Source: a virus
Virus record (IMG/VR): IMGVR_UViG_3300035698_029886
Span: 1 to 23,014 of that record
Length of the DNA: 23,014 nt
Direction: 5' to 3' (one strand)
Below the pieces are notes generated by a model. The model was not told the origin of the DNA. It saw only the letters and a program-made list of their open reading frames with translations, and did not search any database. Made by a program: the position numbers and the translations under genes. Shown one piece after another: positions 5,040-19,147 of the stretch (position 1 is the stretch's first letter; every line of letters starts with the position of its first letter).

Positions 5040-6344
5040 TTAGAAAATTGAATAGCCCTGAAGGACCTTGCTTGACCGAACTATTTTCCTCTGGACAATG
5101 GGCTCTTTCGAGCGAGCCGTGTGCTTCACGTTCTCCAGCAACTGTACAACGGTATCAACTATGTCGTCGTGCCCCGATGGGAACGTGCTCATCTCGTCCA
5201 GCATGGTCTTGGTCCACAGGCTGTCCACCAGGTGAACATTGCCGGCAGCCACGGTATTGGAAACGGCGCAGGCCCGGGAATACTTATCCTTATCGGGCCT
5301 CACGGCCTTCAGGGGCATGCGTGTCTCGTTCCGGATCGTCTGTATCAAGGACTGCCCTGAGGCCTTATCCTCTATAAGCACGAGATCCGGGTCCCACTTC
5401 TCGTACAACTTTTTACAGTTCTCCAAAAGTTCCGGGAACTCCACCCGCTCGTGATACAGGTCTACACAGATGTACTCCGTAGAGGTAATGTACCACGTGG
5501 TGCATACCGAATAGTCGTTCTCCTGCCCCTTCTTGAAGGCCGTATCCCAGGACTGCATAACCTGAAGGACACCCTTGCGCGGCGGCTCGTGGTTTAATAT
5601 CTTAAACCAGTCACGGTGGAACACTTCCTCGGAGCCGATATCGATGAACTCCCCGTGTATCTCCTGCTGCTGGATCGGCCCGGGGACTTCCTCCTCTGCC
5701 TCTCGGATATCGTCCTCGTTCAAGAGGGGGTTGTCATAGGTGGAGTAGTGGAGCGCGCGCCAGTTGGGGTAATCCTCGTCCTGGCCCCGTTTGTACAACG
5801 TGTAGAACTCGTGCTCCTTGCCATCCCTCTTACAGGTCTTGCCCTTAGGGGTGCCTATGAACCATACACGAGCCTGGTAGTCAAGGCACATGGGTCGCAC
5901 GGTAGTCTGCCACAGGTACCGGTTCTGCAGGATGATCCCGGCCTCGTTGAGGATTATGATATCGTATGCAAAACCCTCGATGTTCTCCGGACGGTCAGCA
6001 GAGCGGAAGTCGCATATCCCATTGCAAACCCTAAGTTCCTTCGCCTGTAACTTCCAAGACCAATACTCGCTCTTGATCTTCTTGAGGGATGGCATGGCGT
6101 ATCGCTGTAAGTACTTGTCAATGTTACTATATACAGTGTCTATCCAAAGTATCTTCACCGGTTTACCGGAGAGCATTGTCTCCAGGACGAAGTTGAATGC
6201 GCCGTGGGTGGCCCCGAGGCGTCGGCCCTTAGGCACCACCGTGTACCGTACATCCTCCTGCTCCCAGAAAATCTCATTCTGGGCAGGGGTGGGACGCAGG
6301 TTGAGTGGTTCCCCGCTAAGAGTCAGTCGGCTTTTCTCCACCAA
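5040..6344 (-). CDS. terL: Terminase large subunit (Mu gp28-like TerL)
   Basis: The packaging motor ATPase and nuclease are both visible. A Q-motif-like RPTPAQNEIFW comes first, then a Walker-A-like VPKGRRLGATHG (37-48). Walker B is DIIILNEAG (about 128-136, catalytic Glu134) and the coupling motif is WFIGTPKGK (161-169). The RNase-H-like nuclease follows, with Asp267 (QSWDTAFKKG), Glu325/Asp326 (VLIEDKASGQ) and Asp393/Asp394 (GHDDIVD). The start is a TTG at 6344, six bases from AAGGAAG; GTG 6341 is an alternative. It overlaps the small subunit by 29 bases, as expected for coupled expression. The length of 434 residues is normal for the family. Confidence 0.95.
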   Translation of the reverse strand: MVEKSRLTLSGEPLNLRPTPAQNEIFWEQEDVRYTVVPKGRRLGATHGAFNFVLETMLSGKPVKILWIDTVYSNIDKYLQRYAMPSLKKIKSEYWSWKLQAKELRVCNGICDFRSADRPENIEGFAYDIIILNEAGIILQNRYLWQTTVRPMCLDYQARVWFIGTPKGKTCKRDGKEHEFYTLYKRGQDEDYPNWRALHYSTYDNPLLNEDDIREAEEEVPGPIQQQEIHGEFIDIGSEEVFHRDWFKILNHEPPRKGVLQVMQSWDTAFKKGQENDYSVCTTWYITSTEYICVDLYHERVEFPELLENCKKLYEKWDPDLVLIEDKASGQSLIQTIRNETRMPLKAVRPDKDKYSRACAVSNTVAAGNVHLVDSLWTKTMLDEMSTFPSGHDDIVDTVVQLLENVKHTARSKEPIVQRKIVRSSKVLQGYSIF

Positions 6345-6720
6345 TTTTGTCTTCCTTGGTCAGTATCCTCTTGTCGATCTCCAGAAGGAGCGTCCCGCTG
6401 TGGTCCATCGTGTGCTCGGCCTTCTCAACGTATCCCCGATGCTTGCCCTTGCATTTCAGGAAAAAACATATGGCTCCCAAATTGTCGCCCTTCTTGATCA
6501 TCTCCATCAGTTTGGACTCCGCCAGGTCTATCATGGACTCCTCGATCTCCTTGCGAAGGGCGGCAAAATCCTTTGAACCCCGGGTCCAGTTTGATATGGT
6601 AGAGCTGGATACCTTGGATGCTAAGCATGCCGCGGTCATGTTACAGGCGTTCGCCCCGTACACCGCCAACCACGTCTTCATCCTCTTCGTTACGCGCTCA
6701 TAATGATGAACTTCTGCCAT
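6316..6720 (-). CDS. terS: Terminase small subunit (HTH)
   Basis: This 134-residue protein lies directly before TerL. Its N-terminal part carries a helix-turn-helix-like stretch at about 27-60 (NMTAACLASKVSSSTISNW, then TRGSKDFAALRKEIEES), followed by the typical AESKLMEMIKKGDNLGAICF and LKCKGKHRGYVEK region common to small terminases. Such proteins recognise phage DNA and load it onto the large subunit. The ATG follows GGGAGGT. It is the first gene of the leftward operon and begins 48 bases from the inverted-repeat control region. The family is inferred from pattern and position. Confidence 0.88.
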   Translation of the reverse strand: MAEVHHYERVTKRMKTWLAVYGANACNMTAACLASKVSSSTISNWTRGSKDFAALRKEIEESMIDLAESKLMEMIKKGDNLGAICFFLKCKGKHRGYVEKAEHTMDHSGTLLLEIDKRILTKEDKIGGEKPTDS

Positions 6721-6772
6721 TTAGACCTCCCTGTCTTTTGTACGTAGCCACTCAAACCCTGGCCCGCTCCAC

Positions 6773-6805
6773 AGTAATATAGCCCGTAGTGTGAAAAAAT
6801 TACCG
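6773..6805 (-). promoter_or_regulatory. Putative phage late promoter driving the terminase operon
   Basis: Read leftward, this 33-bp element begins CGGTAATT and ends CGGGCTATATTACT. It matches the rightward element at 18738-18770 at 29 of 33 positions. TATATT is the candidate -10 element. The conserved GGTAAT sits at -35 spacing (17 bp) but is not TTGACA-like, so a phage-encoded activator or sigma factor is likely. The remaining leader to the terS ATG is about 40 bases and contains the ribosome binding site. Confidence 0.65.
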
Positions 6806-6812
6806 ATATGGC

Positions 6813-6829
6813 GGCTATATTACTGTGGA
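6813..6829 (+). promoter_or_regulatory. Putative promoter core for the head operon
   Basis: This is the rightward arm of the inverted repeat, with TATATT at 6816-6821 and about 40 bases to the ATG at 6869. Unlike the other two copies it lacks the upstream CGGTAATT on its own strand, so it may be weaker, differently activated, or simply half of a shared operator. No sigma70-type -35 box is present. Confidence 0.45.
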
Positions 6830-6868
6830 CTGTACTGCGTCGTGTGGTGCAAACAGAGGATTTCGAGC

Positions 6869-7921
6869 ATGCCAGATTTCAATCAGACTCTTGAGGTTGA
6901 GGCATTCCGTTCAGGTAAATGGACGGACAGCGCGGGAAACACTAAGACCTGGAGCGATGCGGATCTTGATACCATCGCCGACAAGTACAACGCCACCAAG
7001 GACAGGGAAGCCCCCGTAGTACTGGGCCACCCTAAGGATAATAGCCCGGCCTATGGCTGGGTCGAGTCGGCGCGCCGGATGGGTGACCGCCTCATGCTCA
7101 AGCTCAAGAACGTACAGGACGGTTTCGTTGAGGCCCTGAAGGCAGGGGCATACAAGAAACGTTCTATCAGCCTCTTCCCCGATATGAACATCCGCCACTT
7201 AGGTTTCCTGGGTGGAGCACAGCCGGCAGTCCCGGGCCTCGCAGACGTGAAGTTTGAGGCCGGCGACGATGCCATTTCCTTTGAGTTCGCCATCGAGGAT
7301 AGCACCGATGACATCGAACTTATCAAAAAAGAAAACAAATTCTTCAAAGGTTTGTTCAGGCAGTTCAAGATGGAACTGCCGACCGATACCAATACAGAGC
7401 CGGACGCTGATCCGGAAACGGAAACTATGGAGGACGATATGTCTGAAGAGCTCAAGGCCCAGGTCACAGACCTCACCGCTAAGGTAGCGGAATTTGAGAA
7501 GGCCTCGACGGAGAAGGACACTGAGATCACTGCCTTGAAGGCTACGATCCAGACGGGTGCCGACACGGCACGTACAGTGGAGCACAAGTCTTTCTGTGAC
7601 GGTTTGGTCACAGAGGGCAAACTGCTTCCCGCAAACGTAGAGATGACCATGGAGAACATGGAGCTACGTTTCCAGGCCGACTTGACCAAGGGCGGCGAGA
7701 GCAAGTCTCTCGAAGTCTACAAGACCAGCCTGAACGGTGGAGAGAAGGTCGTTGAGATGTCCGAGGTCGCCACGAAGACTGAGGCTGTAGAGCCCGTCTC
7801 CACAGACAAGTTCACGGACGCATGCAGGACCCGTGCCGCTGAGAAGAAGATCTCCTTCAGCGATGCGATGAATGAGATCTCACTTGAGCAGCCTGAATTG
7901 GCAAGAGCATACGCTCAGTAA
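6869..7921 (+). CDS. I: Mu gpI-like prohead protease/scaffold precursor
   Basis: The start chosen is ATG 6869, eight bases after AGAGGA, giving 350 residues. The frame reaches back to a GTG at 6791, but that lies inside the inverted-repeat control region. The N-terminal domain (about 1-150) matches Mu gpI-type proteases: APVVLGHPKDNSPAYGWV with His54, then KKRSISLFPDM with Ser99/Ser101 as candidate catalytic residues. After an acidic linker, the C-terminal part is a coiled coil (EELKAQVTDLTAKVAEFEKA). It is typical of scaffold, which shapes the prohead and is then cut away. An internal start at 7439 probably yields the scaffold alone. It is the first gene of the head operon. The family assignment is fairly firm; the catalytic residues are inferred. 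Confidence 0.88.
   Translation: MPDFNQTLEVEAFRSGKWTDSAGNTKTWSDADLDTIADKYNATKDREAPVVLGHPKDNSPAYGWVESARRMGDRLMLKLKNVQDGFVEALKAGAYKKRSISLFPDMNIRHLGFLGGAQPAVPGLADVKFEAGDDAISFEFAIEDSTDDIELIKKENKFFKGLFRQFKMELPTDTNTEPDADPETETMEDDMSEELKAQVTDLTAKVAEFEKASTEKDTEITALKATIQTGADTARTVEHKSFCDGLVTEGKLLPANVEMTMENMELRFQADLTKGGESKSLEVYKTSLNGGEKVVEMSEVATKTEAVEPVSTDKFTDACRTRAAEKKISFSDAMNEISLEQPELARAYAQ
7439..7921 (+). CDS. Z: Nested in-frame scaffold protein (Mu gpZ-like)
   Basis: Inside gene I and in the same frame, GGAGG at 7429-7433 is followed after five bases by ATG 7439, an ideal internal ribosome binding site placed at the boundary between the protease domain and the coiled-coil scaffold. The resulting 160-residue product starts MSEELKAQVTDLTAKVAEFE. 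Mu I/Z and lambda C/Nu3 make their scaffold in this way. Nothing else would explain a near-perfect site at that exact domain boundary. Expression itself has not been shown. Confidence 0.7.
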   Translation: MSEELKAQVTDLTAKVAEFEKASTEKDTEITALKATIQTGADTARTVEHKSFCDGLVTEGKLLPANVEMTMENMELRFQADLTKGGESKSLEVYKTSLNGGEKVVEMSEVATKTEAVEPVSTDKFTDACRTRAAEKKISFSDAMNEISLEQPELARAYAQ

Positions 7922-7931
7922 GGAGTTACAC

Positions 7932-8318
7932 ATGGCATGGGAAAATCGCGGTCAGGACATTTCTTTCGTTGCTGAAGAGGCTATCGAGCAGTATCGTTTC
8001 GTGATACTTTCGAGCACAGAGGGATCCGTGCGCAAGCCGAACTCGGCAGCGGAGTATTCTATCGGTATCACGCAGAACGCTGCGGCGGCTGCCAACGATA
8101 TCGTCTCAGTACGTATCAGTGGGCTCAGCAAGGTAACGGCTAACGATGCGCTTGCGGTCAATGACATGGTCATGCCGGAGTACGTGAGTGCAACCGATGC
8201 TGGTAAGGCAGACGATGCAACCGCCACCCTTGAGTACTCTAAGGGCCAAGTGGTCGCAGCGGCTACTGCCGAGGATGACTACGCGGTAGTCTTGATCCTT
8301 AGCTCGAACCCTGTCTAA
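7932..8318 (+). CDS. DUF2190-type capsid decoration protein (copy 1)
   Basis: The 128-residue protein begins MAWENRGQDISFVAEEAIEQ, the typical opening of DUF2190-like proteins found beside capsid genes, where they act as a decoration or cement protein on the head surface. The rest is small, Ala/Val-rich and beta-strand-like, without cysteine. The ATG follows AAGGAG that overlaps the stop of gene I. It is a paralogue of the next gene, with shared N-termini (ENRG-x-DI-x-F). The role is inferred from the family and the neighbouring protease and capsid genes. Confidence 0.82.
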   Translation: MAWENRGQDISFVAEEAIEQYRFVILSSTEGSVRKPNSAAEYSIGITQNAAAAANDIVSVRISGLSKVTANDALAVNDMVMPEYVSATDAGKADDATATLEYSKGQVVAAATAEDDYAVVLILSSNPV

Positions 8319-8335
8319 GAAGGAGCGAATAGATT

Positions 8336-8737
8336 ATGGCTTTCGAAAACAGAGGGCTCGATATCCGCTTCGATGCGGGTGAAGACCTTAGCTCGTCTCA
8401 GTACCGCTTCATGGAGCTCAACTCCGATGGAGAAGCGATCCTGGCTGGAGCGACAGGTGGTTACGCTGTGGGTATCCTGCAGAACACGCCGGAAGAGGGT
8501 TATGCGGCGGCTGTGCGGGTAGACGGCGTAAGCAAACTTGCCATTGGTTCCACAGGGATCTATGGTACAACGGGCGTAGCAATAAACACGTTCGTGTCTC
8601 CCGATGCCAACGGCAGAGGTGTGGGCGAAACTGGCGTAGGGTATGCGCCGAAGTACACCAAGGCTCGCGTGCTTGAATCTACGTACCTTTTCGACAAGCT
8701 CTCGACCGTCGAGATCGTATCCGCGAACCCCGCGTAA
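8336..8737 (+). CDS. DUF2190-type capsid decoration protein (copy 2)
   Basis: The 133-residue protein starts MAFENRGLDIRFDAGEDLSS and shares the ENRG-x-DI-x-F opening, the G-I-x-QN middle motif (VGILQNT against IGITQNA), the V-R-V/I-x-G-x-SK segment and the V-x-x-NP-A/V end with the previous gene. The two are tandem duplicates that have diverged strongly. Copy 2 carries an extra glycine-rich loop (about 70-105). It lies directly before the major capsid gene and has its own AAGGAG. Two different cement-like proteins may occupy different capsid sites, which is an inference. Confidence 0.8.
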   Translation: MAFENRGLDIRFDAGEDLSSSQYRFMELNSDGEAILAGATGGYAVGILQNTPEEGYAAAVRVDGVSKLAIGSTGIYGTTGVAINTFVSPDANGRGVGETGVGYAPKYTKARVLESTYLFDKLSTVEIVSANPA

Positions 8738-8758
8738 CAACTGAACAAGGAGTAAGAA

Positions 8759-9742
8759 ATGCCTCAGCCAACAGATACTTCAATCCTGGTGCGTGGTGCA
8801 CTACAGGAAGTTAGCATTGGATACAAGAACGAGTCGTACATCGCCGATCAGGTGTTCCCGATCATCAATGGTCTTGGACGTCTGTCGAAGGTCGCCAAGT
8901 ACAACAAGGGCGCATGGTACCGCAACGAGGCCGCTTATCGCGCCCCGGGTACTGAGGCCAGGCGTGGCGGCTACACGGTGACTACCGAGAACCTCGACCC
9001 GAAGCAGATCGCTTTCGCGAAGGAAGTAACGAAAGAGATCGCAGCGGACGCGGCAACTGCCGGCAACCTGCCCCTGCGCCCCGCGCAGGAAGCTATCATG
9101 TACACTGCCGACAAGGTGGATTTGTTCAAAGAGAAGACGATTGCCGACCTTATCTTCGCGCAGACCTGGGCTGATGGCAACTTAGGTGGTGAAGACGCTG
9201 GTGGGTTGTGGGCCGCTACGGACACTACCAACACCCTCGTGACAGACGTCGTAGCCGGCAAGCAGGCTATCCGCACAGCGACTGGCAAGATCGCCAACAC
9301 GCTTGTCATGGACTATGACACCATGATCGCGCAGACTTTGAACGTCGTCCTGTCCGACAAGATCAAGTACACCCAGACTTCCGTCATGACCCCGGCTCTG
9401 CTGGCGTCGTTGCTGGAGCTGGACCAGGTCATTATCGGTTCTGCGGTGTACAGCACCGCTGATGAGAACGCTGACAATGACGACTTCACGGCCGCCAACA
9501 TCTGGGAGCAGAATGCCGGTAAGGGTTCAGCATTCCTGTGCTACCGTCCGGCGTCCGCTGGTCTGTTCCAGGCATCGCCTGGCTACCAGTACCGCCTCAT
9601 GGTAGAGGGTATGAACCGCAGGACGTACTCATGGTACGACAACGCGATTCACTCCACCATCTACGAGACGCAGGAGGATGTGGATCTCGCGGTGGTCGAC
9701 ACGGCGTGCGGCTACCTGTGGAAGGACACGCACACTACCTAA
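8759..9742 (+). CDS. Major capsid protein
   Basis: At 327 residues, starting after AAGGAG, this is the expected capsid gene by position: after protease/scaffold and decoration genes, before gp36/gp37-like connectors. The N-terminus (IADQVFPIINGLGRLSKVAK, then a GAWYRNEAAYRAPGTEARRG segment) and the C-terminal region (FLCYRPASAGLFQASPGYQY, then R-x-Y-SWYDN) resemble HK97-fold capsid proteins of Mu-like and related myophages. It forms the head shell hexamers and pentamers. A strong terminator follows 24 bases after the stop, consistent with high, separately controlled expression. Confidence 0.88.
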   Translation: MPQPTDTSILVRGALQEVSIGYKNESYIADQVFPIINGLGRLSKVAKYNKGAWYRNEAAYRAPGTEARRGGYTVTTENLDPKQIAFAKEVTKEIAADAATAGNLPLRPAQEAIMYTADKVDLFKEKTIADLIFAQTWADGNLGGEDAGGLWAATDTTNTLVTDVVAGKQAIRTATGKIANTLVMDYDTMIAQTLNVVLSDKIKYTQTSVMTPALLASLLELDQVIIGSAVYSTADENADNDDFTAANIWEQNAGKGSAFLCYRPASAGLFQASPGYQYRLMVEGMNRRTYSWYDNAIHSTIYETQEDVDLAVVDTACGYLWKDTHTT

Positions 9743-9766
9743 GGGTAGTTGAAGGATAACGGTCCG

Positions 9767-9799
9767 ATGGGCGGCGGCAGTGTCGCCGCCCATTTTTTG
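9767..9799 (+). terminator. Rho-independent terminator after the major capsid gene
   Basis: ATGGGCGGCG (9767-9776) and CGCCGCCCAT (9784-9793) form a perfect 10-bp stem with a seven-base loop, followed by six T residues (9793-9798). It lies 24 bases after the capsid stop and 21 before the next ATG. Partial read-through is needed unless an unseen promoter serves the tail genes, so it probably sets a high capsid to connector ratio. Confidence 0.92.
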
Positions 9800-9819
9800 T
9801 TGAAACGAAGAAGGGGCAC

Positions 9820-10245
9820 ATGGCATACAGTTCTCTCGAAGACCTGAAGACGTACATGCCCGAGCGCGACCTGGTGCAGCTTACCGACCAGGACGGCGTG
9901 AATGAGATAGACGCGGAGATCGTCGACGATGCGATACTGCGCGCCGACAACATGATCGATACGTACTTGAGGGGAAGATATCCGGCGCCCATCACTGGCA
10001 CCGTCCCACAGGAGATCAAGGATATCAGTACCAAGCTGGCGGCGTACAACCTGTACAGAAAGAACATGCAGACTACGCTTCCTGACCCGGTGAAGATGGA
10101 GCGTTCCGATGCCATGTCGATGTTGAAGGACATACAGTCCGGCAAGCTGACACCGTTCCCGAGCACGGACGAGCCGTCTATTATCGTATCGAACAAGGAC
10201 GCAGATGACAAGATCTACACATCAACGGTATGGGATACATACTAA
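9820..10245 (+). CDS. Mu gp36-like (DUF1320) head-tail connector protein
   Basis: The 141-residue protein begins MAYSSLEDLKTYMPERDLVQ and continues with VDDAILRADNMIDTYLRGRYP and IKDISTKLAAYNLYR. This is the characteristic DUF1320 layout: an adaptor-like helical bundle with a GRYP turn. Such proteins form the ring under the portal. It follows the capsid terminator and carries GAAGAAGGGGC as its ribosome binding site. The stop overlaps the ATG of the next gene by one base (TAATG). The family call is good; the exact ring position is inferred. Confidence 0.87.
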   Translation: MAYSSLEDLKTYMPERDLVQLTDQDGVNEIDAEIVDDAILRADNMIDTYLRGRYPAPITGTVPQEIKDISTKLAAYNLYRKNMQTTLPDPVKMERSDAMSMLKDIQSGKLTPFPSTDEPSIIVSNKDADDKIYTSTVWDTY

Positions 10246-10817
10246 TGATCTCTGATATCTGCAGAGCGATATTGGACAAGTTGAACACTGCCGGGATAGA
10301 TGTCCGGCAGATAGAGTTACGCGATTTGGTCAATAGGACACTAAGCCTTAGGGGGCCTGCTGTAAATGTGGCGGTGGATGCGGCAACAATGACGCCGCTC
10401 ACAGTCAACAGTGTGTACAAAGTTACCTTGGATATCTCTCTTATCCTCGTGCTTAAGAATCTGAAGGGCGAAGAGAGTGCCAGGCTGGAGTCGCAAGACA
10501 TATTGGACGCGCTCATACAGGCGTTCACTCTGACCGACCTTGGACTTGAACTGCAGGACCCGCTGGTCCCCACCTCCTTCCGGAATATCACCGATAAGGA
10601 GTATGCGGACGGCGGGTTCCAACTCTACCAGTTGAACCTGCGGTGTTCGTACAACGTTGAGAAGGAGAGTGACGAGGAGGACTGGGGCATTCTGACCAGC
10701 ATCCTCACCAAGTACTACCTGCAGCCGAGAACTGAAACAGGCATGCTGGGGGTGACCGGGCCGGAGATGGAAGGCCTGGTATGGTACGAAGGCGGATCAA
10801 CAGGGGTCAGTGGATGA
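10245..10817 (+). CDS. Mu gp37-like (DUF1834) neck/tail terminator protein
   Basis: The start is ATG 10245 in a TAATG overlap with the gp36-like gene, rather than the upstream ATG 10230. The 190-residue product shows the DUF1834-like pattern: an N-terminal helix (ISDICRAILDKLNTAG), a long beta-strand section (VNSVYKVTLDISLILVLKNL), RLESQDILDALIQAF and a LGLELQDPLVPTS loop. In Mu, gp37 lies between gp36 and the tail sheath, as here, and is thought to act at the neck or tail end. The family is assigned from pattern and gene order. Confidence 0.78.
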   Translation: MISDICRAILDKLNTAGIDVRQIELRDLVNRTLSLRGPAVNVAVDAATMTPLTVNSVYKVTLDISLILVLKNLKGEESARLESQDILDALIQAFTLTDLGLELQDPLVPTSFRNITDKEYADGGFQLYQLNLRCSYNVEKESDEEDWGILTSILTKYYLQPRTETGMLGVTGPEMEGLVWYEGGSTGVSG

Positions 10818-10851
10818 CCTTGATTATACACGTGAGACAGGAGAGGTGACA

Positions 10852-11199
10852 ATGGCACGGATACAGATTATAGCACCTAAGGGGACAACGTTCACGATAG
10901 GCGGCAAGCGTATCACGGACAGCAAGCCTATCACCGCGCGCTCCGAGGAATACCGTATCATGAAGTACCTGTCCGATGGATCGGTTCTACTGTACGAGGA
11001 ACCGAAGAAACCTAAGAAGGCGCTCGCCCCTAAGGTAAAGGATGAAACCCCGAAGGCCTCCAAGAAGGCCTCCGAGACAGAGGATAAACCCAAAACGGAC
11101 GGTAGCATCGAGGTAGACGAATTGCTCGCCAGCCTCCCTGAAGCGTCCGGTGCGGACAAAGAGGAAGCGTCTGACGCGGCTCTGACAACCGAGGAGTAA
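10852..11199 (+). CDS. DUF2635-like small protein (Mu gp38 position) with Lys-rich tail
   Basis: The start chosen is ATG 10852, seven bases after AGGAGAGG; the frame extends to 10810 but without a better site. The first 50 residues (IIAPKGTTFTIGGKRITDSK, then EEYRIMKYLSDGSVLLYEE) resemble Mu gp38/DUF2635 proteins, which are usually about 60 residues and sit just before the sheath gene, as here. Residues after about 50 are Lys/Pro-rich, then acidic (PKKPKKALAPKVKDETPK, then EASGADKEEASDAA), low in complexity and probably disordered. The extension roughly doubles the usual length. The function is unknown. Confidence 0.65.
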   Translation: MARIQIIAPKGTTFTIGGKRITDSKPITARSEEYRIMKYLSDGSVLLYEEPKKPKKALAPKVKDETPKASKKASETEDKPKTDGSIEVDELLASLPEASGADKEEASDAALTTEE

Positions 11200-11204
11200 A
11201 TATT

Positions 11205-12659
11205 ATGGCATCACCAAACATCTCTTTCACCGAAGTACCTGAGGGCATCCGCAAGCCGGGCGTCTACTTTGAGTACAACACGTCGCTCGCCGTGCGCGGC
11301 CTTCCGACTATTTCCAACAGCATTCTCATGCTGGGTATGCGTACGAGTGGCGGTAGTGTGGCGGAGAATATCCCCACGAAGATCTTCGGCGCCGAAGACG
11401 CAAAGCTGTATTTCGGCACAGGAAGCCCGCTCCATGTCATGGCCATTTCCCTGTACAAGGCTAACCCCTATGCCTCTTCGGTAACGTGCGTAGCACTGGA
11501 CGAAGCGACCGGGACCCCCGCAGAGGGTGCGTGGGGTTTCACCGGCACAGCAACGGCGTCCGGTACAGTCACGTCCTTTATTCAGGATCAGCGTATCGAT
11601 ATATCCGTAGCCAACGAGGATACGGCCGACGAGGTCGCTGCCGCCCTTGAGGCAGAGATCGCCAAGTATGAGGATACTCTCCCCATCACCGCCGCCGTTT
11701 CCACCAACGTGGTTACCTTGACCGCTCGCCTGGACGGGACGGACGGGAACTACATCCCGATGGCGCAGGAAATTGACTGTGCAGGTATCATGACTACTGG
11801 TGAGACTGGCATGATTCTTGGGGCCACCGACCCGACTGTCGCCGATGCATTGACGGCCGTGTTCCCGGGTGAGTACTCGATCTACATTTCTGAATTCGTG
11901 GACGATACGGCCCTCGGCCTTATCAAGACGCACATCGACACCAAGTCGAATGCTATCGAGCAGCGTCCCGCGATATGCGCGTACGGCTACACCGAGCTGG
12001 TGGGTAACGGCGCGGCTATCAAGACACAGGCCGGCACGACCTTGAACAGTGGGCGTATGTCTGTGGCAACAATGGCTTACTCTACTACAGTAGGTCCCCA
12101 GGCCGCACCGATGCAGATAGCCGCCGCTTTCGGTGGTGTGCTTGCCTCGGCGACTGACCCGGCACAGCCGTACAACAACTTGGGTCTGACGGCGATCCCG
12201 ACCCCGGCGGTAGCGGACAGGTTCTCCCGTAGCGTCCAGGAGGATTATCTGGACAACGGTGTGACCCCGCTCCACGTGATACCGGGCAACAAGGCCGCTA
12301 TCGTAAGGGCTATCAGCACGTACACCACGAACGCAGCCGGCACGGCTGACCCGTCTCTGCTGGATATCACGACTATCCGTACGCTTGACTACACGCGTAA
12401 CGCTATCGTGACCCGTCTGGAGAACAGGTTCCCTCGCGCCAAGCTGTCGAGCCGTACGCCGAACCGGGTGCGCACTCAGGTTCTTGATGTCCTGCGCCAG
12501 CTCGAAGACCTTGAGATCGTGGAAGAGGTTGATGCGAACAAGGCCGGTGTCCTGGTCGAGCGCGACTCGTCCGACGCCAGCCGTCTCAATGTCCGCGTGC
12601 CTGCAGACGTTGTGAACGGCCTCCATGTGCTCGCTGGTGTTATCGACCTGTTGCTCTGA
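11205..12659 (+). CDS. L: Contractile tail sheath protein (Mu gpL-like)
   Basis: At 484 residues and directly before the tube gene, this is the Mu L/gp39-type sheath. It begins with the PNISFTEVPEGIRKPGVYFE opening typical of these sheaths, followed by an inserted beta-rich domain (about 90-200, containing VVTLTARLDGTDGNY), the conserved AICAYGYTELV region and a C-terminal segment with LDYTRNAIVTRLENRFPRAK. Sheath subunits encircle the tube and contract during injection. The ribosome binding site is GAGGAG, overlapping the end of the previous gene. The presence of a sheath makes the virion a myovirus. Confidence 0.92.
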   Translation: MASPNISFTEVPEGIRKPGVYFEYNTSLAVRGLPTISNSILMLGMRTSGGSVAENIPTKIFGAEDAKLYFGTGSPLHVMAISLYKANPYASSVTCVALDEATGTPAEGAWGFTGTATASGTVTSFIQDQRIDISVANEDTADEVAAALEAEIAKYEDTLPITAAVSTNVVTLTARLDGTDGNYIPMAQEIDCAGIMTTGETGMILGATDPTVADALTAVFPGEYSIYISEFVDDTALGLIKTHIDTKSNAIEQRPAICAYGYTELVGNGAAIKTQAGTTLNSGRMSVATMAYSTTVGPQAAPMQIAAAFGGVLASATDPAQPYNNLGLTAIPTPAVADRFSRSVQEDYLDNGVTPLHVIPGNKAAIVRAISTYTTNAAGTADPSLLDITTIRTLDYTRNAIVTRLENRFPRAKLSSRTPNRVRTQVLDVLRQLEDLEIVEEVDANKAGVLVERDSSDASRLNVRVPADVVNGLHVLAGVIDLLL

Positions 12660-12707
12660 TGGTAAGATTGATTTGACTTGTAGGTCGACACAGATAGATG
12701 AACTACC

Positions 12708-12733
12708 CCCGGGGTCCTAAGGGCCTCGGGTTT
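12708..12733 (+). other. Hairpin between sheath and tube genes, possible weak terminator
   Basis: CCCGGGG (12708-12714) can pair with CCTCGGG (12724-12730), with one G-T pair and a nine-base loop, followed by only three T residues. A TTGACT at 12673 has only a poor -10 partner near 12695. I read the gap (12660-12752) as a processing or weak attenuation site ahead of the highly expressed tube gene. Confidence 0.4.
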
Positions 12734-12752
12734 CAACTAAGGAGAAATCACC

Positions 12753-13112
12753 ATGGCACGATATGTATCGCGCATAGAACTCGAAGTGAACGGAGAGGCA
12801 ATCTCCGATTTCAGTTCATTCACGGACATGACGAAGAGCCGTCACATCCAGGTCGAGCTGATGAACAAAACAGGCCATGCGGCTATCACGCCCCGCTATC
12901 AGGTTTCGGTAGACTATGTCACGCCGAGGGACTCTAAGGAATTCGACTGGTCGGATGTGTCTAACGGCACGCTGACTATCGAGTATGAGAACGGCAACCG
13001 GACTACTTGGGGCGGCGTGTTCGTCCTTGATGAAGGCGACTCGTCTTTCGACGGGACTGCTGCATCGACAAGGACCATTACCCTTGGTGCGGAGTCGCGC
13101 GCCACAGAGTAA
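12753..13112 (+). CDS. M: Tail tube protein (Mu gpM-like)
   Basis: The 119-residue protein follows the sheath gene and starts after AAGGAG. Its sequence (MARYVSRIELEVNGEAISDF, then SSFTDMTKSRHIQVELMNKTG, YQVSVDYVTPRD and NGTLTIEYENGNRTTWGGVF) is beta-rich and fits the Mu M/gp40 tube family at its usual length. Tube subunits stack into hexameric rings through which DNA passes. Hairpins lie on both sides of the gene, which suits the much higher tube copy number compared with the chaperone after it. Confidence 0.87.
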   Translation: MARYVSRIELEVNGEAISDFSSFTDMTKSRHIQVELMNKTGHAAITPRYQVSVDYVTPRDSKEFDWSDVSNGTLTIEYENGNRTTWGGVFVLDEGDSSFDGTAASTRTITLGAESRATE

Positions 13113-13125
13113 CATCGGATAGACA

Positions 13126-13148
13126 GGAGGCTCTTGGGTAGAGCCTCC
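13126..13148 (+). other. Perfect 8-bp hairpin after the tube gene
   Basis: GGAGGCTC (13126-13133) pairs exactly with GAGCCTCC (13141-13148) around a seven-base loop. No T tract follows, so a classic terminator is unlikely. The stem also hides a GGAGG sequence that might otherwise act as a ribosome binding site. An mRNA stability or processing role is possible. Confidence 0.6.
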
Positions 13149-13170
13149 GTACCATAGCAAGGAGACAGGA

Positions 13171-13704
13171 ATGGCACAGGAACCGCAAGGTAAAAGCCTG
13201 CTATCGAAGCTGAAGGCCGGCTCGAAGAACTTCAAGGTCATTAGCTGGCCAAGTACCGGGGACGAGGTCAAGATCCGCATTCTCAACGAGCAGGACTATC
13301 TGGAGGCCTCGGAGGCGACCGACAAGTTATTCGCCGATAGGCATGTAGCCGCAGAGAACATCAGCGACTACGAGTCCGAGAAGGCGACACAGCAGCTGTT
13401 CAGGGCCATAGAGGACCCGAAGAGTGGCAAGGCACTTACTGGCAACATCACGGAGTTCAGGCGGTTGCTGACCTCCGAGGTCAAAGAGGCTTTGTACGAC
13501 GAGTTCAAGCAGTTCTCTGACGAGGTAGATCCGAGCCCCACGAGACTTACGGACGATGAATTTGACGTGCTGTTCAACAACGTAAAAAAAAATTCGAAGC
13601 AAACGAGTGGGAACGTCTCAAGTATCTTCACCGCGAGAAGGCTTATCATTGCTTTGGTAGAGGAGCTTTCGAGCTTACAGACGGACAGTGGCTCTACATC
13701 TTAG
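13171..13704 (+). CDS. Tail assembly chaperone, zero-frame product (Mu gp41-like)
   Basis: The 177-residue product starts after AAGGAGACAGG and lies exactly between tube and tape measure, the fixed place of the tail assembly chaperone pair. It is a helical, charged protein (VKIRILNEQDYLEASEATDK, EFRRLLTSEVKEALYDEFKQ). After the A9 run at 13584-13592 the zero frame continues for 37 codons of Ser/Thr-rich, unremarkable sequence to 13704, while the -1 frame gives a better-looking extension. Chaperones of this kind coat the tape measure while the tube polymerises. The assignment rests on position and the frameshift signature. Confidence 0.82.
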   Translation: MAQEPQGKSLLSKLKAGSKNFKVISWPSTGDEVKIRILNEQDYLEASEATDKLFADRHVAAENISDYESEKATQQLFRAIEDPKSGKALTGNITEFRRLLTSEVKEALYDEFKQFSDEVDPSPTRLTDDEFDVLFNNVKKNSKQTSGNVSSIFTARRLIIALVEELSSLQTDSGSTS

Positions 13705-13811
13705 CCGCTGAAACCGTCACTGCTACCCCCGCTTCACAGCCCGCCCAAGGCGACCCCCTCGCCGAATCTGGACCTAAAGAATACGTACAAGGCAGGAAAC
13801 CCCAGGACTGA
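13171..13811 (+). CDS. Tail assembly chaperone, -1 frameshift extended product
   Basis: A -1 slip at 13584-13590 joins the first 140 codons to a second frame that runs as KFEANEWERLKYLHREKAYH, then GRGAFELTDGQWLYILAAET, ending at TGA 13809-13811, three bases before the tape measure ATG. The predicted fusion is about 213 residues. Lambda G/GT and the Mu gp41 region use the same strategy, in which a minority long form binds the tape measure. The second frame has no usable start of its own and reads as real protein, which strongly supports the shift. A sequencing error in the A run is the main alternative. Confidence 0.78.
13584..13590 (+). promoter_or_regulatory. -1 ribosomal frameshift slippery site A AAA AAA
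   Basis: In the zero frame the codons read gtA AAA AAA AAT, which is the strong bacterial slippery heptamer A AAA AAA inside a nine-A run (13584-13592). Re-pairing one base back keeps both lysine tRNAs matched and leads into the open -1 frame. No clear downstream pseudoknot or upstream Shine-Dalgarno-like stimulator is seen. Confidence 0.75.
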
Positions 13812-13813
13812 CT

Positions 13814-15400
13814 ATGGCTGATCTCAGGATAATCATAAGCGGAGACGTTAAGAACCTCACGCTCAACCTGAATAAGGCGACCAAGTCCGTCGACAAATTC
13901 TCGAAGCGTTCCAAGAAGTCGTTCAGTGGCCTTGGAAAATCGTTGAAGGGTGTCACCAAACTGCTCGGGCCTTTGGGTGTAGCAGGGGCTATGGCTGGTG
14001 TGGCGTTCTGGGCTATCAAGAGTGCGAAGTCCATTATCAAGTTTGACGAGGCGGTCTTCCGTCTTTCCATACAGTCGAACATCAGTGCCGAAGCGCAGAT
14101 CAATCTACGCGATAAGATCATGCAAACCTCCCTGTCTACCATGCAGTCGAGAGATGAAATCGTCGCCGCGTTGGACACCATCATAACCAAAACAGGTGAA
14201 ATGAAGTTCGCCTCTGATAACATAGAGACTATCGCCCGAGCAGCGACGGCCTCCGGTGCTGCAGGCACGGACCTCGCATCCGTAGCCGTAGAACTGAAAG
14301 AGGGCTGGGGGTTGGGTTCGGATGAAATCGAGAGGTTCTTCAACGTCCTCGTCGCTCAGGGTAAGCGGGGTAAGTTCACGTTGTCTGAGATAGCGAGCCA
14401 GTCGGAGAGGCTGTTCCTCTCAGCCTCACAACTCGGTGTGAAGAAAGAAGGCCTCGACTTTTTTGGGGGCCTGCTGCAGATAGCGCGTGGAAAAACCGGG
14501 AGTGCGGAAGAGGCGTCCACAGCCGTGGCGCGCTTTGCTGATGACATTGTCAAGAACGAAGCTAAAATAAAGAAACTGACCGGGTTTAGTGTCTGGGACC
14601 CGGAGGAAACTAAGAAGCAGAGTAAGCCTGTTCTCAAGGAGATCAGGGAGTTGACCTACGGCCTCCTCGAGGCTATGGGTGGTGACGTCACGAAGATACA
14701 GAAAGTCTTCGGTGTTAGGTCGAAGAAGGTCTTCCAGGCGCTTGATAAGGCCTATAAGGAACTTGGCATACCTGGTGTCGAGAGATATGTGAAAACATCG
14801 AAGAAGGAACTGAACTCCCTCAACAGGGACTTCGACCGATTCGGGAAGAGCACCGCAGGCAAGATGAAACATCTCAACTCGTTGTTCACCTTCGCCTCGG
14901 ACAAAGCAATTGCTCCCGTGCTCGCGGAGATGTCTGAAGAGTTGTCTAAGTTCCTTGAAGACGAAGAGAACGTTGAACTCATGATCGGCGCCTTCCAAGG
15001 CCTCGGAGAGATTATCGGTGGCACGGCAAAAGCGGTCATAGCACTGTCAAAGGCATGGCAGGGGCTGGTCGGATGGGTAGCCGCGTATCTCATAAAAGAG
15101 AAAGCGGTACGGTACACGCCATATACCGGGGGCGGTAAAGATGCCCCCCTTGCCCGTACGGCGGGATCGGAGTCGTCCAGGCAACCATACATACCGCCAG
15201 AGTTGAGAGCCCAAGTTAAGAAGCAAGGGAACGTCGCGTCGGAAACAAAACAGTCCGCAGCGGACAGACTATGGGGTGGCGACGTAAAGAACACGACGAA
15301 CGTGTACATAGGTGGCCAGAAGGTTAAACCCGACAAGGTCACAAATGTAATGTCTCGCGGTAACCGTACCGCCACAACCGCAGTACCAGGGGGCAACTAA
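13814..15400 (+). CDS. Tail tape measure protein
   Basis: At 528 residues this is the long, helical, Lys/Ser-rich protein expected after the chaperone pair. It has an N-terminal charged section, a hydrophobic segment at about 50-68 (LLGPLGVAGAMAGVAFWAI), a long helical middle with ISAEAQINLRDKIMQTSLST-like repeats of Mu-type tape measures, and a second hydrophobic zone near 390-430 (LGEIIGGTAKAVIAL, LVGWVAAYLI). The tail end is basic and Gly/Thr-rich. It sets tail length; by the usual rule of about 0.15 nm per residue it predicts a tail of roughly 80 nm. The stop overlaps the next ATG (TAATG). Confidence 0.9.
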   Translation: MADLRIIISGDVKNLTLNLNKATKSVDKFSKRSKKSFSGLGKSLKGVTKLLGPLGVAGAMAGVAFWAIKSAKSIIKFDEAVFRLSIQSNISAEAQINLRDKIMQTSLSTMQSRDEIVAALDTIITKTGEMKFASDNIETIARAATASGAAGTDLASVAVELKEGWGLGSDEIERFFNVLVAQGKRGKFTLSEIASQSERLFLSASQLGVKKEGLDFFGGLLQIARGKTGSAEEASTAVARFADDIVKNEAKIKKLTGFSVWDPEETKKQSKPVLKEIRELTYGLLEAMGGDVTKIQKVFGVRSKKVFQALDKAYKELGIPGVERYVKTSKKELNSLNRDFDRFGKSTAGKMKHLNSLFTFASDKAIAPVLAEMSEELSKFLEDEENVELMIGAFQGLGEIIGGTAKAVIALSKAWQGLVGWVAAYLIKEKAVRYTPYTGGGKDAPLARTAGSESSRQPYIPPELRAQVKKQGNVASETKQSAADRLWGGDVKNTTNVYIGGQKVKPDKVTNVMSRGNRTATTAVPGGN

Positions 15401-16749
15401 TGCCAGATAGAGTAACAGCAAAACTGGTAGTTGAGAGGCTCTTCACTACGCGGGCCTTCAGGCTCGATATCATAGACATCTCGGACACCATAGAACGTGC
15501 CGTGATAGTGCATGAGTTACCCTATAGGAACGGTGCCGTGCTGGAGGATCTCGGTTCTCTCGCCCGCGTGGTGAATGTGAACTGCGCCTTCTATGAGAAC
15601 TCCGTACCGAGCCTGAACCCGCTGAGTGGTATCAACCCATCATATAGTGCACACTTCCTGTTCGTGAAAGACTTGCAGAACGAGGAGGTCCTGGAACTTC
15701 ACCACCCTAAGTATCGGATGATGAAGGGCAAGGTCCGCAACATATCAGTACTGAACAACGAGCGTGACCAGTACGCCGAGGTGGCCTTTGAGTTCGTTGA
15801 GCAGACAGTGGACGTCGCCGTCCTGCCGGCCTTCGAGGTGACGGCAGCCGTCGCCCAGGGGTTCCGTGCCGCACAGGGGTTCTCCCTGAGTGCCATAAAG
15901 GACTCGGTCAAAGGTGCCCTCGATGCCAGTTCAGCCCTTCAGGTACTGGACGCGGCCGTTGATTTCACGCAGGACATGGCTGACCAGATCACCAATGTAT
16001 CCAAGGCGGCACGCGAGTACATCAAGGGCGTAGACGCTGTCGTGGGCAAGTTCGACACCATCCTCGGCAATATCGCACAGCCGGTCAAGAGCATCCTCGG
16101 CACCATAGACTATACGGCTGACCTCCCGGGCAGGCTCCTGTACGCTACCGCCCAGACCACAGAGAGGTACCAACAACTGTACGCCGGCATCGAGAGTACG
16201 CCCGTCACCTACGTGTCCAGTTTCATGAACGGCATGACCGCCCTGCAGTCGTCGTTTCAAGGCTATGCGCAGGAGACTCTTGCGATCGACCAGGCCAAGG
16301 CCTTGAAGGCACAGTGGGGTTGTATCATGGCCGCACGCGTCCTGCGTACCGATCAGGACAGCAGGGACGAACTCCAGGCTAAGGAAACTGAGAAGGCTTT
16401 CGATAAGAACGGCAATCTGGTAGGCACCACGGTCAGGCCGAACATCATGACGAAGGACGACCTTGAGCGTATCCTGTATGATACCAAGGCGGCTGCACAG
16501 GGGACGGTGGATGTCTCACGCGACAACCGTGGGCTGAAGGAAGAGATCAAGGCGTTGCAGGACAACGTGAACACGACCAAACTGGAGAGGCTCCGCATCA
16601 AGAGAGTCGATGTTGAAAACATGCCTCTTCACGTACTCTGCCTCCAGAACAAGTTGAGCTACCAGACTGCGGAGAAAATTCTCAAACTGAACCCTAAGAT
16701 CAAGAACCCCACATTCACGCAGGGAGCTGTGGACATTTATGGCCGATAG
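15400..16749 (+). CDS. N: Mu gpN-like tail/DNA circularisation protein
   Basis: The 449-residue product overlaps the tape measure stop by one base. Its N-terminal 100 residues (IERAVIVHELPYRNGAVLED, LGSLARVVNVNCAFY, LELHHPKYRMMKGKVRNI) match the DNA circulation N-terminal family represented by Mu gpN/gp43. This is followed by a long helical and Ala-rich middle. A C-terminal segment (LRIKRVDVENMPLHVLCLQN) is LysM-like in feel, but not clearly so. In Mu, gpN is a baseplate hub component connecting to the tape measure. It overlaps the following gene by 11 bases. Confidence 0.87.
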   Translation: MPDRVTAKLVVERLFTTRAFRLDIIDISDTIERAVIVHELPYRNGAVLEDLGSLARVVNVNCAFYENSVPSLNPLSGINPSYSAHFLFVKDLQNEEVLELHHPKYRMMKGKVRNISVLNNERDQYAEVAFEFVEQTVDVAVLPAFEVTAAVAQGFRAAQGFSLSAIKDSVKGALDASSALQVLDAAVDFTQDMADQITNVSKAAREYIKGVDAVVGKFDTILGNIAQPVKSILGTIDYTADLPGRLLYATAQTTERYQQLYAGIESTPVTYVSSFMNGMTALQSSFQGYAQETLAIDQAKALKAQWGCIMAARVLRTDQDSRDELQAKETEKAFDKNGNLVGTTVRPNIMTKDDLERILYDTKAAAQGTVDVSRDNRGLKEEIKALQDNVNTTKLERLRIKRVDVENMPLHVLCLQNKLSYQTAEKILKLNPKIKNPTFTQGAVDIYGR

Positions 16750-17872
16750 GATGGAGATTACACTTCTCGCGCCGCCCCCTCTGATGACCTCAAGGGTGCT
16801 GCAGAACTTCACTTCCTACTCCTTTAGCTCGGATCTGTACGAGCTGGCGGACATGGCAGAGGTGACGGTTCCGGTCGGGGAGCTCGGTAATGTCCAGCCA
16901 GGCTACCAGATAGTGGCTCAGGTAGTGGACGATGAGCGTAGCGCCATTAGCGTGGCCGTGTTCGCGGGGACGGTAGACGCCGTAGTTCACGAGTACAACA
17001 AGACCGCGCACAACGTGACCCTTCGCTGTCGCGACTACAGTGCCTTCCTGGTGGACGAGTACTGCTCGAAGTTCACGGACTACACGGTGGGCACGGCTCT
17101 GCGCGTGTACAACGATTTGGTAGACAACGTCTCAGCGGTCAAGTACCTCGACCTCAGCGTGCAGGACCTGTTCAAACTGTACAACTCGAAGGACCTCTTG
17201 GCGCACGTTTTCACGTCTGCCAACCCGTTCAAGGTGTCCCCAGGTGACACGGTGGCAGGGAAGCTACAGGAACTCGCCGTGCGCATGGGTGTGGATTTCT
17301 ATTACCTTGAGGACGGGAAGGTGCTTTTCGGCAAACTGAACGTCCTCAGGATAAAGGAACAGCTCAGTGGCGTAGGCGTACACGCCCTCTACAACACGTG
17401 GCTCAAGCCGAATGTGAACATAAAGTCGTGCTCCTTCGTGAACGATCTGTCCGGGCGGTACTCGAAGATACGCGTCTTCGGGCAGTCGCAGCAGGGCAAG
17501 ACGTTCTACTCTACAACCTATGATAATAGCCTGCTTTGGAACAAGTTCATGATCGTGAACTTCAATGACCTTGAGGAGTCGCTCGAAACCAGGGGCATTG
17601 AGATCCGGGAGGAGCAGAGGGAGGCCGGGTTCGAACTGGAGTACAACGTGGTGGGACACACGCAGATGGGCCAGGCGTGGCAGGTGAACCGCGAGGTGGA
17701 TGTGGCGGACGATACCATAGGTGTACGTGACAGGTATCTGGTAAACTCGCGCACCATGACGTACGGACCTACCAGCGGCACGGAGACCTATTTGCGCCTT
17801 GGCCTGGTCAAGGACTACACCAACGACCCGCCCCCGCCGATTACGGGCAATTCATGGAAGCCGTTAGGATAA
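16739..17872 (+). CDS. P: Baseplate hub protein (Mu gp44/gpP-like)
   Basis: The 377-residue protein starts inside the end of gene N (11-base overlap) after GGAGCTG. Features of the gp44/gpD-type hub are visible: an N-terminal beta-rich domain (YSFSSDLYELADMAEVTVPV), the FAGTVDAVVHEY turn, the VSPGDTVAGKLQELAVRMGV motif near 170, and a C-terminal section with TMTYGPTSGTETYLRLGLVK. Hub trimers form the end of the tail tube and hold the spike, which is the next gene. The call rests on motifs and gene order. Confidence 0.87.
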   Translation: MADRMEITLLAPPPLMTSRVLQNFTSYSFSSDLYELADMAEVTVPVGELGNVQPGYQIVAQVVDDERSAISVAVFAGTVDAVVHEYNKTAHNVTLRCRDYSAFLVDEYCSKFTDYTVGTALRVYNDLVDNVSAVKYLDLSVQDLFKLYNSKDLLAHVFTSANPFKVSPGDTVAGKLQELAVRMGVDFYYLEDGKVLFGKLNVLRIKEQLSGVGVHALYNTWLKPNVNIKSCSFVNDLSGRYSKIRVFGQSQQGKTFYSTTYDNSLLWNKFMIVNFNDLEESLETRGIEIREEQREAGFELEYNVVGHTQMGQAWQVNREVDVADDTIGVRDRYLVNSRTMTYGPTSGTETYLRLGLVKDYTNDPPPPITGNSWKPLG

Positions 17873-17876
17873 CGAT

Positions 17877-18374
17877 ATGGCACAGGACAGGGACAGCAAG
17901 CTGATTCGAGCAAAGCTCAAGGACGTCTACAACACCGTGGACGTGGATGAACTTGTCGTGGACGCCGACCGTGACCTCGGGGAAGGCGATACCGACTCAT
18001 ACAGCAACAGGTCGTACTTCCAGCACGACGGGTTCTACTCGATACCGCGTAGCGAGAGTGTCGTGGGTGCCGGGGACGGCGATGAGATAATCTTTGTCAA
18101 GGCCGACAACACCTATGTGGCCATAGCCTCGGCGAGTGCTGCCTCCCTGAAACCGGCTCTCACCTCGGAGGGGGATTCGTGCATTTACTACAACGCCGAG
18201 ATCTTCGTGGCCGTCCTGGCAGACGGTACGGTGCGCATACAGAGCAAAGGTGGCCTGTTCCTCATGGAGCCGGATGGCGTTATCAGTATGGAGAACGACG
18301 TTGGAAGCATCGATATGGCGGCTGATGGGACTGTGGCTATCAACGGTGGCAACCTTACGGTGGATCCTTCTTAA
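17877..18374 (+). CDS. Baseplate spike protein (Mu gp45-like)
   Basis: The 165-residue protein fits Mu gp45: an N-terminal part with YFQHDGFYSIPRSESVVGAG, an OB-fold-like centre (GDEIIFVKADNTYVAIASAS), GDSCIYYNAEIFVAV and a repetitive beta-helix-like end (SKGGLFLMEPDGVISMENDV, then GSIDMAADGTVAINGG). It would form the trimeric membrane-piercing spike. The iron-binding His-x-His tip seen in Mu gp45 and P2 gpV is absent, and the protein ends just after the beta-helix turns. The next gene overlaps its stop by one base. Confidence 0.85.
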   Translation: MAQDRDSKLIRAKLKDVYNTVDVDELVVDADRDLGEGDTDSYSNRSYFQHDGFYSIPRSESVVGAGDGDEIIFVKADNTYVAIASASAASLKPALTSEGDSCIYYNAEIFVAVLADGTVRIQSKGGLFLMEPDGVISMENDVGSIDMAADGTVAINGGNLTVDPS

Positions 18375-18733
18375 TGGCTGAGTACATAGCAACCGAGGAC
18401 TCAACGTTCTCCTTTGATGTCTCAACGGCGGGTAGCGTGTCCATAGTGCCGGCTACAAGCGTGGCGGCGAAGTTTCAGGTGAAGACCTTGGGTACGTACA
18501 CGAGCATGGGTATTGTTGTGAGTGGTGCCACGAATGGCACAGTGACGGGTGCGAGTGGTGTAGCGGTCATTACAGGTGGTGCGGCTAAGGTGTCTTCAGG
18601 GGGCCTCTACGTTGTCCTGGAGGGAGACTGTGTGCCCATCACGCTGCTGGGGATGGTAGGAACGACTCCGACCTCCTATCCGGACACGGTAACGATAGCG
18701 ACAGCCGGGCAGACGGTGACGAAAGCGACGTAG
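18374..18733 (+). CDS. Small beta-rich protein after the spike gene, 119 aa
   Basis: The ATG overlaps the spike stop (TAATG), so the two are co-translated. The product is rich in Gly, Thr, Val and Ala, with alternating strand-like patterns (KFQVKTLGTYTSMGIVVSGA, ATNGTVTGASGVAVITGG) and an end of DTVTIATAGQTVTKAT. No membrane helix or signal peptide. I do not recognise a named family. Its position between spike and gp46 suggests a baseplate part, perhaps a spike tip or cap, since the spike lacks the usual His-x-His tip. That role is inference only. PAAR repeats are not visible. Confidence 0.65.
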   Translation: MAEYIATEDSTFSFDVSTAGSVSIVPATSVAAKFQVKTLGTYTSMGIVVSGATNGTVTGASGVAVITGGAAKVSSGGLYVVLEGDCVPITLLGMVGTTPTSYPDTVTIATAGQTVTKAT

Positions 18734-18737
18734 TAAT

Positions 18738-18770
18738 CGGTAATTGTTGCACAGTGCGGGCTATATTACT
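18738..18770 (+). promoter_or_regulatory. Putative phage late promoter driving the baseplate operon
   Basis: This 33-bp element begins CGGTAATT and ends CGGGCTATATTACT. It is 29/33 identical to the leftward element at 6773-6805. With TATATT (18762-18767) as the -10, transcription would start near 18774, leaving a leader of about 14 bases that still contains GGGGA as ribosome binding site for the ATG at 18788. GGTAAT lies at -35 spacing (17 bp) but is not sigma70-like. GTAAT and ATTAC form an inverted pair near the ends of the element. Confidence 0.7.
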
Positions 18771-18787: not shown

Positions 18788-19147
18788 ATGGACTTCAAAA
18801 TAGTGAGCACAGACGGTTTGGGTGGGGAGATGTCTTGGGACAAGGCCGAGGATCTTGGCACCCACGTCGCGCTGTCTCTGTCAGTGAATCAGGGTGACTT
18901 CTTTCAGGATCCCACATTCGGGAGCCGGCTGTTTGAGGTGAAGAAACTTACCACAAAGGGCATGAACCTGGCACAACAGTACATAGAAGAGGCGCTTCAG
19001 TGGCTTTTGGACACAGGTAAGGCCTCGAACATTGACGTGTTCGTGGAGCGGGACAGCATCGACCGCAACCGTTTGAACATACGCGTTCAGGTTGAGGAGC
19101 GGGACGGCAACCAGATCACATATGATCTCTACAAAGAATTCGTATAG
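18788..19147 (+). CDS. Baseplate wedge protein (Mu gp46-like)
   Basis: The 119-residue protein (MDFKIVSTDGLGGEMSWDKA, then LGTHVALSLSVNQGDFFQDP, FGSRLFEVKKLT and an amphipathic helix AQQYIEEALQWLLDTGKAS) fits the gp46/gp25-type wedge family, with the typical FGSRL turn. It links the hub to gp47. It is the first gene after the second late-promoter element and is followed closely by the gp47-like gene. The usual gp25-like length is kept. Confidence 0.88.
   Translation: MDFKIVSTDGLGGEMSWDKAEDLGTHVALSLSVNQGDFFQDPTFGSRLFEVKKLTTKGMNLAQQYIEEALQWLLDTGKASNIDVFVERDSIDRNRLNIRVQVEERDGNQITYDLYKEFV

Follow-up and report, generated by a model that had tools for sequence, protein, structure and literature searches.

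Repeated elements ahead of the packaging, head and baseplate genes of a Mu-like phage fragment as candidate late promoters

How could a phage whose packaging genes diverge from its head and tail genes bring all its assembly genes into action together? The question is raised by a metagenomic tailed phage fragment, positions 1-23,014 of the incomplete IMG/VR record IMGVR_UViG_3300035698_029886 (the window). Its rightward genes run in the order Mu I-type protease, capsid, Mu gp36-like adaptor, Mu-type sheath, tube, tape measure, hubs, gp46 and gpJ-type wedges, with the P and gp45-position genes at 16739-18374, upstream of the third of the sites described below. The genes that these sites would serve are:

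6316..6720, minus strand: terminase small subunit (terS), which opens the leftward packaging operon (PHROG 4044, E=2e-4)
5040..6344, minus strand: terminase large subunit (terL; PHROG 38, E=4e-37)
3747..5024, minus strand: portal protein (PHROG 113, E=5e-101)
among the leftward genes, minus strand: neck protein (Phage_tail_S match; PHROG neck/tail completion)
6869..7921, plus strand: Mu I-type head maturation protease, which opens the head operon (PHROG 976, E=5e-57)
18788..19147, plus strand: baseplate wedge protein of the Mu gp46 type, first gene past the rightward element (PHROG 180, E=2e-18; 81% amino acid identity to L021)
19156..20028, plus strand: baseplate J / gp47-type protein (PHROG 6, E=2e-23)

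Other signals occur elsewhere in the window. Two terminator-like hairpins within 1480-1630 are followed by a canonical TATAAT (1585-1590), possibly an early, sigma70-type promoter, ahead of a small ORF (1630-1827) that is ribbon-helix-helix-like by eye. A sigma70-like promoter matching at 11/12 positions, TTGTCA-18-TATAAT, lies antisense inside the head-tail operon (10852-10823, minus strand), and the last, truncated fibre-like ORF includes collagen-like G-x-y tandem repeats (22857-23001).

The sites and their parts are located as follows:

6773..6807, minus strand: candidate late-promoter element ahead of terS, terL and portal, ATCGGTAATTTTTTCACACTACGGGCTATATTACT; 29/33 against the gp46 copy; kept in L019, where the flanks have diverged
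6800..6807, minus strand: block ATCGGTAA of the leftward element, in the -35 position and 17 bp from its -10 box; identical in 4/4 full copies
6776..6781, minus strand: putative -10 box TATATT of the leftward element, predicted start ~6769; block GGCTATATTAC invariant in six sites
18736..18770, plus strand: candidate late-promoter element ahead of the gp46/gpJ baseplate genes, ATCGGTAATTGTTGCACAGTGCGGGCTATATTACT; homologous site in L021
18762..18767, plus strand: putative -10 box TATATT of the gp46 element, predicted start ~18774, 14 nt ahead of the ATG; invariant in six sites
6812..6824, plus strand: head-operon core CGGCTATATTACT, one mismatch to the -10 core; putative -10 TATATT at 6816-6821, predicted start ~6828; identical in L019
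6786..6797, plus strand: block GTAGTGTGAAAA at the -35 position of the putative head promoter, within the spacer of the leftward one; 12/12 in L019

An earlier note made from the window alone had reported a shared 33-bp element, and its coordinates and counts are correct: the leftward 33-mer (6773-6805, minus strand; CGGTAATTTTTTCACACTACGGGCTATATTACT) and the rightward one (18738-18770, plus strand; CGGTAATTGTTGCACAGTGCGGGCTATATTACT) agree at 29 of 33 positions, or 89% over 35 nt including the flanking AT. This 35-nt pair is the top-ranked inverted repeat in the window. There are just two full copies in the 23,014-base record, and the pattern CGGTAATT-N8..16-GGGCTATATTAC is found twice. The gp46 element begins 3 bp past the stop codon of the upstream gene and 52 bp ahead of gp46, and the predicted start would give a 14-nt leader whose first bases are AGGGG. 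Dinucleotide-preserving shuffles were used as a chance test (1000 for any pair, 300 for a fixed 33-mer): two 33-mers matching at 29 or more positions anywhere arose in 2 of the 1000, and the best match to the fixed 33-mer never rose above 23/33 in the 300.

When the four full copies (two from the window and one each from the relatives L019 and L021) are lined up on TATATT, they read ATC GGTAA[T/A] - 17 bp - TATATT AC. The distance between GGTAA[T/A] and TATATT is exactly 17 bp in all four, and both window copies have GGTAAT. TATATT matches the sigma70 -10 consensus TATAAT at 5/6 positions and is invariant in six sites. The hexamer at -35 matches TTGACA at only 2/6 (GGTAAA) or 1/6 (GGTAAT), no sigma70-type -35 being found at 16-18 bp, and the sites are not among the listed results of a sigma70 consensus promoter scan.

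The third core described in the note, facing the head operon, was recovered as GGCTATATTACTGTGGA at 6813-6829, identical to the reverse complement of 6768-6784. This copy has the same GGCTATATTAC but no GGTAA, ATCGGTAA or CGGTAATT at -35, where GTAGTGTGAAAA stands instead; the pairing of TATATT with a non-sigma70 GGTAAT, proposed for every site, thus applies to both full copies but not to the head-facing one. GTAGTGTGAAAA is missing from both gp46 copies (window and L021). The divergent -10 boxes are 34 bp apart in the window and 33 in L019, and since the head block is also the spacer of the leftward promoter, the two divergent promoters would be interleaved. A CRP site was considered and dropped, a GTGTGA half-site being present in the divergent gap only.

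The motif is present in homologous phages at matching places. A major capsid protein (MCP) search yielded L019 and L020 (82% amino acid identity), and the terS/protease gap of L019 holds the divergent block GTAATATAGCC..GTAGTGTGAAAA..TTTACCGATA..CGGCTATATTACT. A blind scan of all IMG/VR viral contigs with GGTAA-N15-GGCTATATTAC returned 11 contigs, among them that of L019 and L021, the other nine having no homology to the window. L021 is a relative by tblastn, with the element directly ahead of its gp46 homologue (81% amino acid identity). Absence ahead of homologous operons, which the note had named as the outcome that would count against it, is therefore not what close relatives display: each carries the motif, at one position. 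Four-fold-degenerate sites are only 37-43% identical, yet ATCGGTAA and GGCTATATTAC are both intact. In L019 the divergent block is identical at 46/51 positions, against 43% at four-fold-degenerate sites (binomial P ~3e-12); in L021 the core blocks of the gp46 site agree at 21/21, against 37%, with a binomial P (~1e-9) that is optimistic because the blocks were picked after the data had been seen. Independent homologous sites outside the window are few, one divergent region and one gp46 region. Judged by this conservation, the element is real and functionally constrained. In L021 the gp46 element is preceded by CAGTATAGCCC (L021:1861-1880, minus strand), which resembles an inverted -10 core and overlaps the stop codon of the upstream gene.

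These observations are probably best explained if one phage lineage uses the three sites as coordinated late promoters, with TATATT as the -10 and a phage late activator at ATCGGTAA. Promoter function in itself is likely, to judge from the sites, their spacing, positions and conservation; from these we infer initiation of transcription, its late timing and the use of an activator. Host RNA polymerase would read TATATT as a -10, and ATCGGTAA would serve as the dock for a phage-encoded late activator, comparable in role to Mu C, that replaces the -35 contact. The leftward promoter would drive terS-terL-portal and the rightward head promoter protease, capsid and tail genes, the two standing back to back with their upstream regions interleaved, and the gp46 site would act as an internal rightward booster for gp46, gpJ and fibre genes. 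A shared activator could in this way turn on all assembly genes together. Against this reading stand the missing GGTAAT of the head-facing copy, the small number of independent homologous sites and the lack of the motif in relatives of ~50% identity (below); the different elements ahead of I and gp46 in ST405 and several prophages (below) speak for it. The shared late-promoter class proposed in the note is well supported by position-specific conservation in independent relatives; its undescribed activator is a hypothesis, no activator or sigma gene having been found in the window, an incomplete fragment.

The main rival, which seems unlikely, is that a dedicated sigma factor, either encoded by the phage or an alternative one of the host, recognises ATCGGTAA at -35 as well as GGCTATATTAC at -10 and requires no activator besides. 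Both blocks are indeed kept beyond the sigma70 norm, including GGC before and AC after TATATT, at a fixed 17-bp spacing, and the L019 and L021 copies contain TAAAGTTT, the -35 of the sigma28 (FliA) promoter consensus TAAAGTTT-N11-GCCGATAA. However, TAAAGTTT occurs in those two copies only, the window reading TAATTTTT/TAATTGTT; the -10, GCTATATT, matches at 2/8 positions by eye and is not sigma28-like; the head-facing copy lacks ATCGGTAA at -35; and the fragment shows no sigma gene.

That the sites are instead operators for a phage regulator, acting as a repressor or as a timing switch and superimposed on ordinary promoters, is improbable. Inverted half-sites GTAA...TTAC stand at both ends of all four full copies and the divergent gap forms a long inverted repeat, but conservation is strongest in the -10-like box, the fixed 17-bp spacing and the distance expected of a promoter, none of which a pure operator needs. 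Even less credit can be given to an RNA hairpin, a terminator or a packaging or recombination site that is repeated incidentally: the divergent region does form a strong fold on either strand (-30.6 and -28.1 kcal/mol, z ~-7), but the gp46 copy has no fold (z 0.35), for which reason the hairpin reading was abandoned, and no T-run follows sites that lie just ahead of the first genes of operons, at a position kept in relatives. Chance or a recent duplication without function, which the mere two full copies in the window and the 2/1000 shuffles might still allow, is virtually excluded, the footprints in L019 and L021 having already refuted it against 37-43% neutral identity; given the intergenic placement and this conservation in other phages, a chance origin of the pair is untenable.

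The candidate late promoters appear to be narrowly distributed. The exact motif had no match over IMG/VR. A relaxed scan with ATCGGTAA-N15-GGCTATA hit 42 contigs, of which L021 and L024 alone are kin of the window around the site; nearly all the sites lie within long open frames and the scan added no further members. Protein scans with J, MCP and TerL found few close kin. The motif is absent from L033/G001, L115, L116 and L117/G007, relatives of ~50% identity whose packaging genes share the divergent arrangement, and the divergent gap of L033/G001 holds no repeated element. Because it is absent from these relatives and the looser scan adds no members, the motif is clade-specific. The divergent terS/head gap of G007 has a perfect inverted repeat of its own, ATAATACGCT-24-AGCGTATTAT (L117:7410-7453), with facing -10-like boxes ~32 bp apart; a related CGTATTATCCTTATA occurs at L120:1792, near the end of the gene after a DNA_circ-type hub. 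Among 398 + 369 genomes sampled around a betaproteobacterial prophage host, no close prophage turned up. In a literature search, neither the -10 core GGGCTATATTAC/GGCTATATTACT nor the element sequences of phage ST405 (below) were found in any of the papers searched, and CGGTAATTTTTTC was printed in one unrelated paper.

Among described promoter classes, the late promoters of T4 (TATAAATA) belong to the class of the sigma factor gp55 (PMC2988020). The likeness lies in one phage-specific promoter class for assembly genes; the window element differs in having a conserved block where a -35 would lie, whereas the late promoters of T4 are not known to have one.

In Mu, the activator C drives late transcription from the lys, I, P and mom promoters (Plys, PI, PP, Pmom; PMC4461284). 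The window resembles Mu in having one element common to several late operons, a promoter, here putative, ahead of the protease gene I, a non-consensus -35 and, as predicted for the window, use of host polymerase with a weak -10. The layout parallel drawn in the earlier note is real insofar as the packaging and I positions match; but the third site here precedes gp46, downstream of the P homologue, rather than P itself, and the packaging operon is divergent and inverted, whereas Mu packaging genes are co-oriented. The C-binding site of Mu, of the ATAACC/TTAT-N6-ATAA type, lies upstream of the -10. No site of this type was found at the three window sites; the I gap of Mu does contain ATAACCCC. 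The Mor/C family (PF08765) had no match in the window, G001, L019-L021, G006 or G007, all of them fragments, under a search that gave two matches in Mu and one in ST405 as positive controls; rve was absent too. The window element thus resembles the Mu late regulon in layout, and membership is not supported.

The closest annotated phage by sheath (45%) is ST405-OXA48phi1.1, a Mu-like phage of Klebsiella, in which another element is repeated:

MK388859.1:9269, 18062 and 29749; L110:4059 and L110:15746: ST405 element ACTGAAnCnCnTCA, with dyad TGAAG-N2-CTTCA

Exactly three copies of ACTGAAnCnCnTCA are found over 32 kb, ahead of the endolysin gene, I and gp46. Here, too, one element is repeated across late operons, at the lysis region, before I and before gp46; unlike the window, its sequence is unrelated, a Mor/C-family gene is present and the packaging genes are co-oriented. 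Elements related to that of ST405 lie ahead of I and gp46, at near-equal distances, in the prophages L040, L043, L051 and L060, and a different one, ATTTTGCCCnCGTTCnAAATACGCCAG, exactly 53 bp ahead of both genes in a Bordetella pseudohinzii prophage (L056:5777 and L056:17545). In a formal 28-mer test, L110, L051 and L056 alone stand out, the best 28-mer of L051 being a start-codon hairpin and not the ACTGAA element. The hairpin CATGCCCCGCACACTGCGGGGCATG, or a close variant, is found at or over predicted start codons in L051, L040 and L060 (I and gp46) and in L043 (gp46); translational control is possible. Mor/C-family genes are encoded by ST405 and by the genomes behind L040, L051, L056 and L060.

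Comparison of these sequences suggests that late-promoter positions are fixed in Mu-like tail modules and that the elements are lineage-specific. It can tentatively be proposed, as a bolder form of the late-promoter reading, that the window has a late switch with its own new activator family, distinct from Mor/C and from known sigma factors, acting at ATCGGTAA, and that this is one of several unrelated switches swapped at fixed positions (ahead of packaging or lysis genes, I and gp46) in Mu-like contractile-tailed phages. Knowledge of late activators and of their sites is confined to few phage lineages, and the present case offers a concrete sequence with exact positions. A repeated element ahead of I and gp46 could be sought to find such regulons in unannotated phages. 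Late-promoter positions in Mu-like tail modules may persist as regulator and site are replaced.
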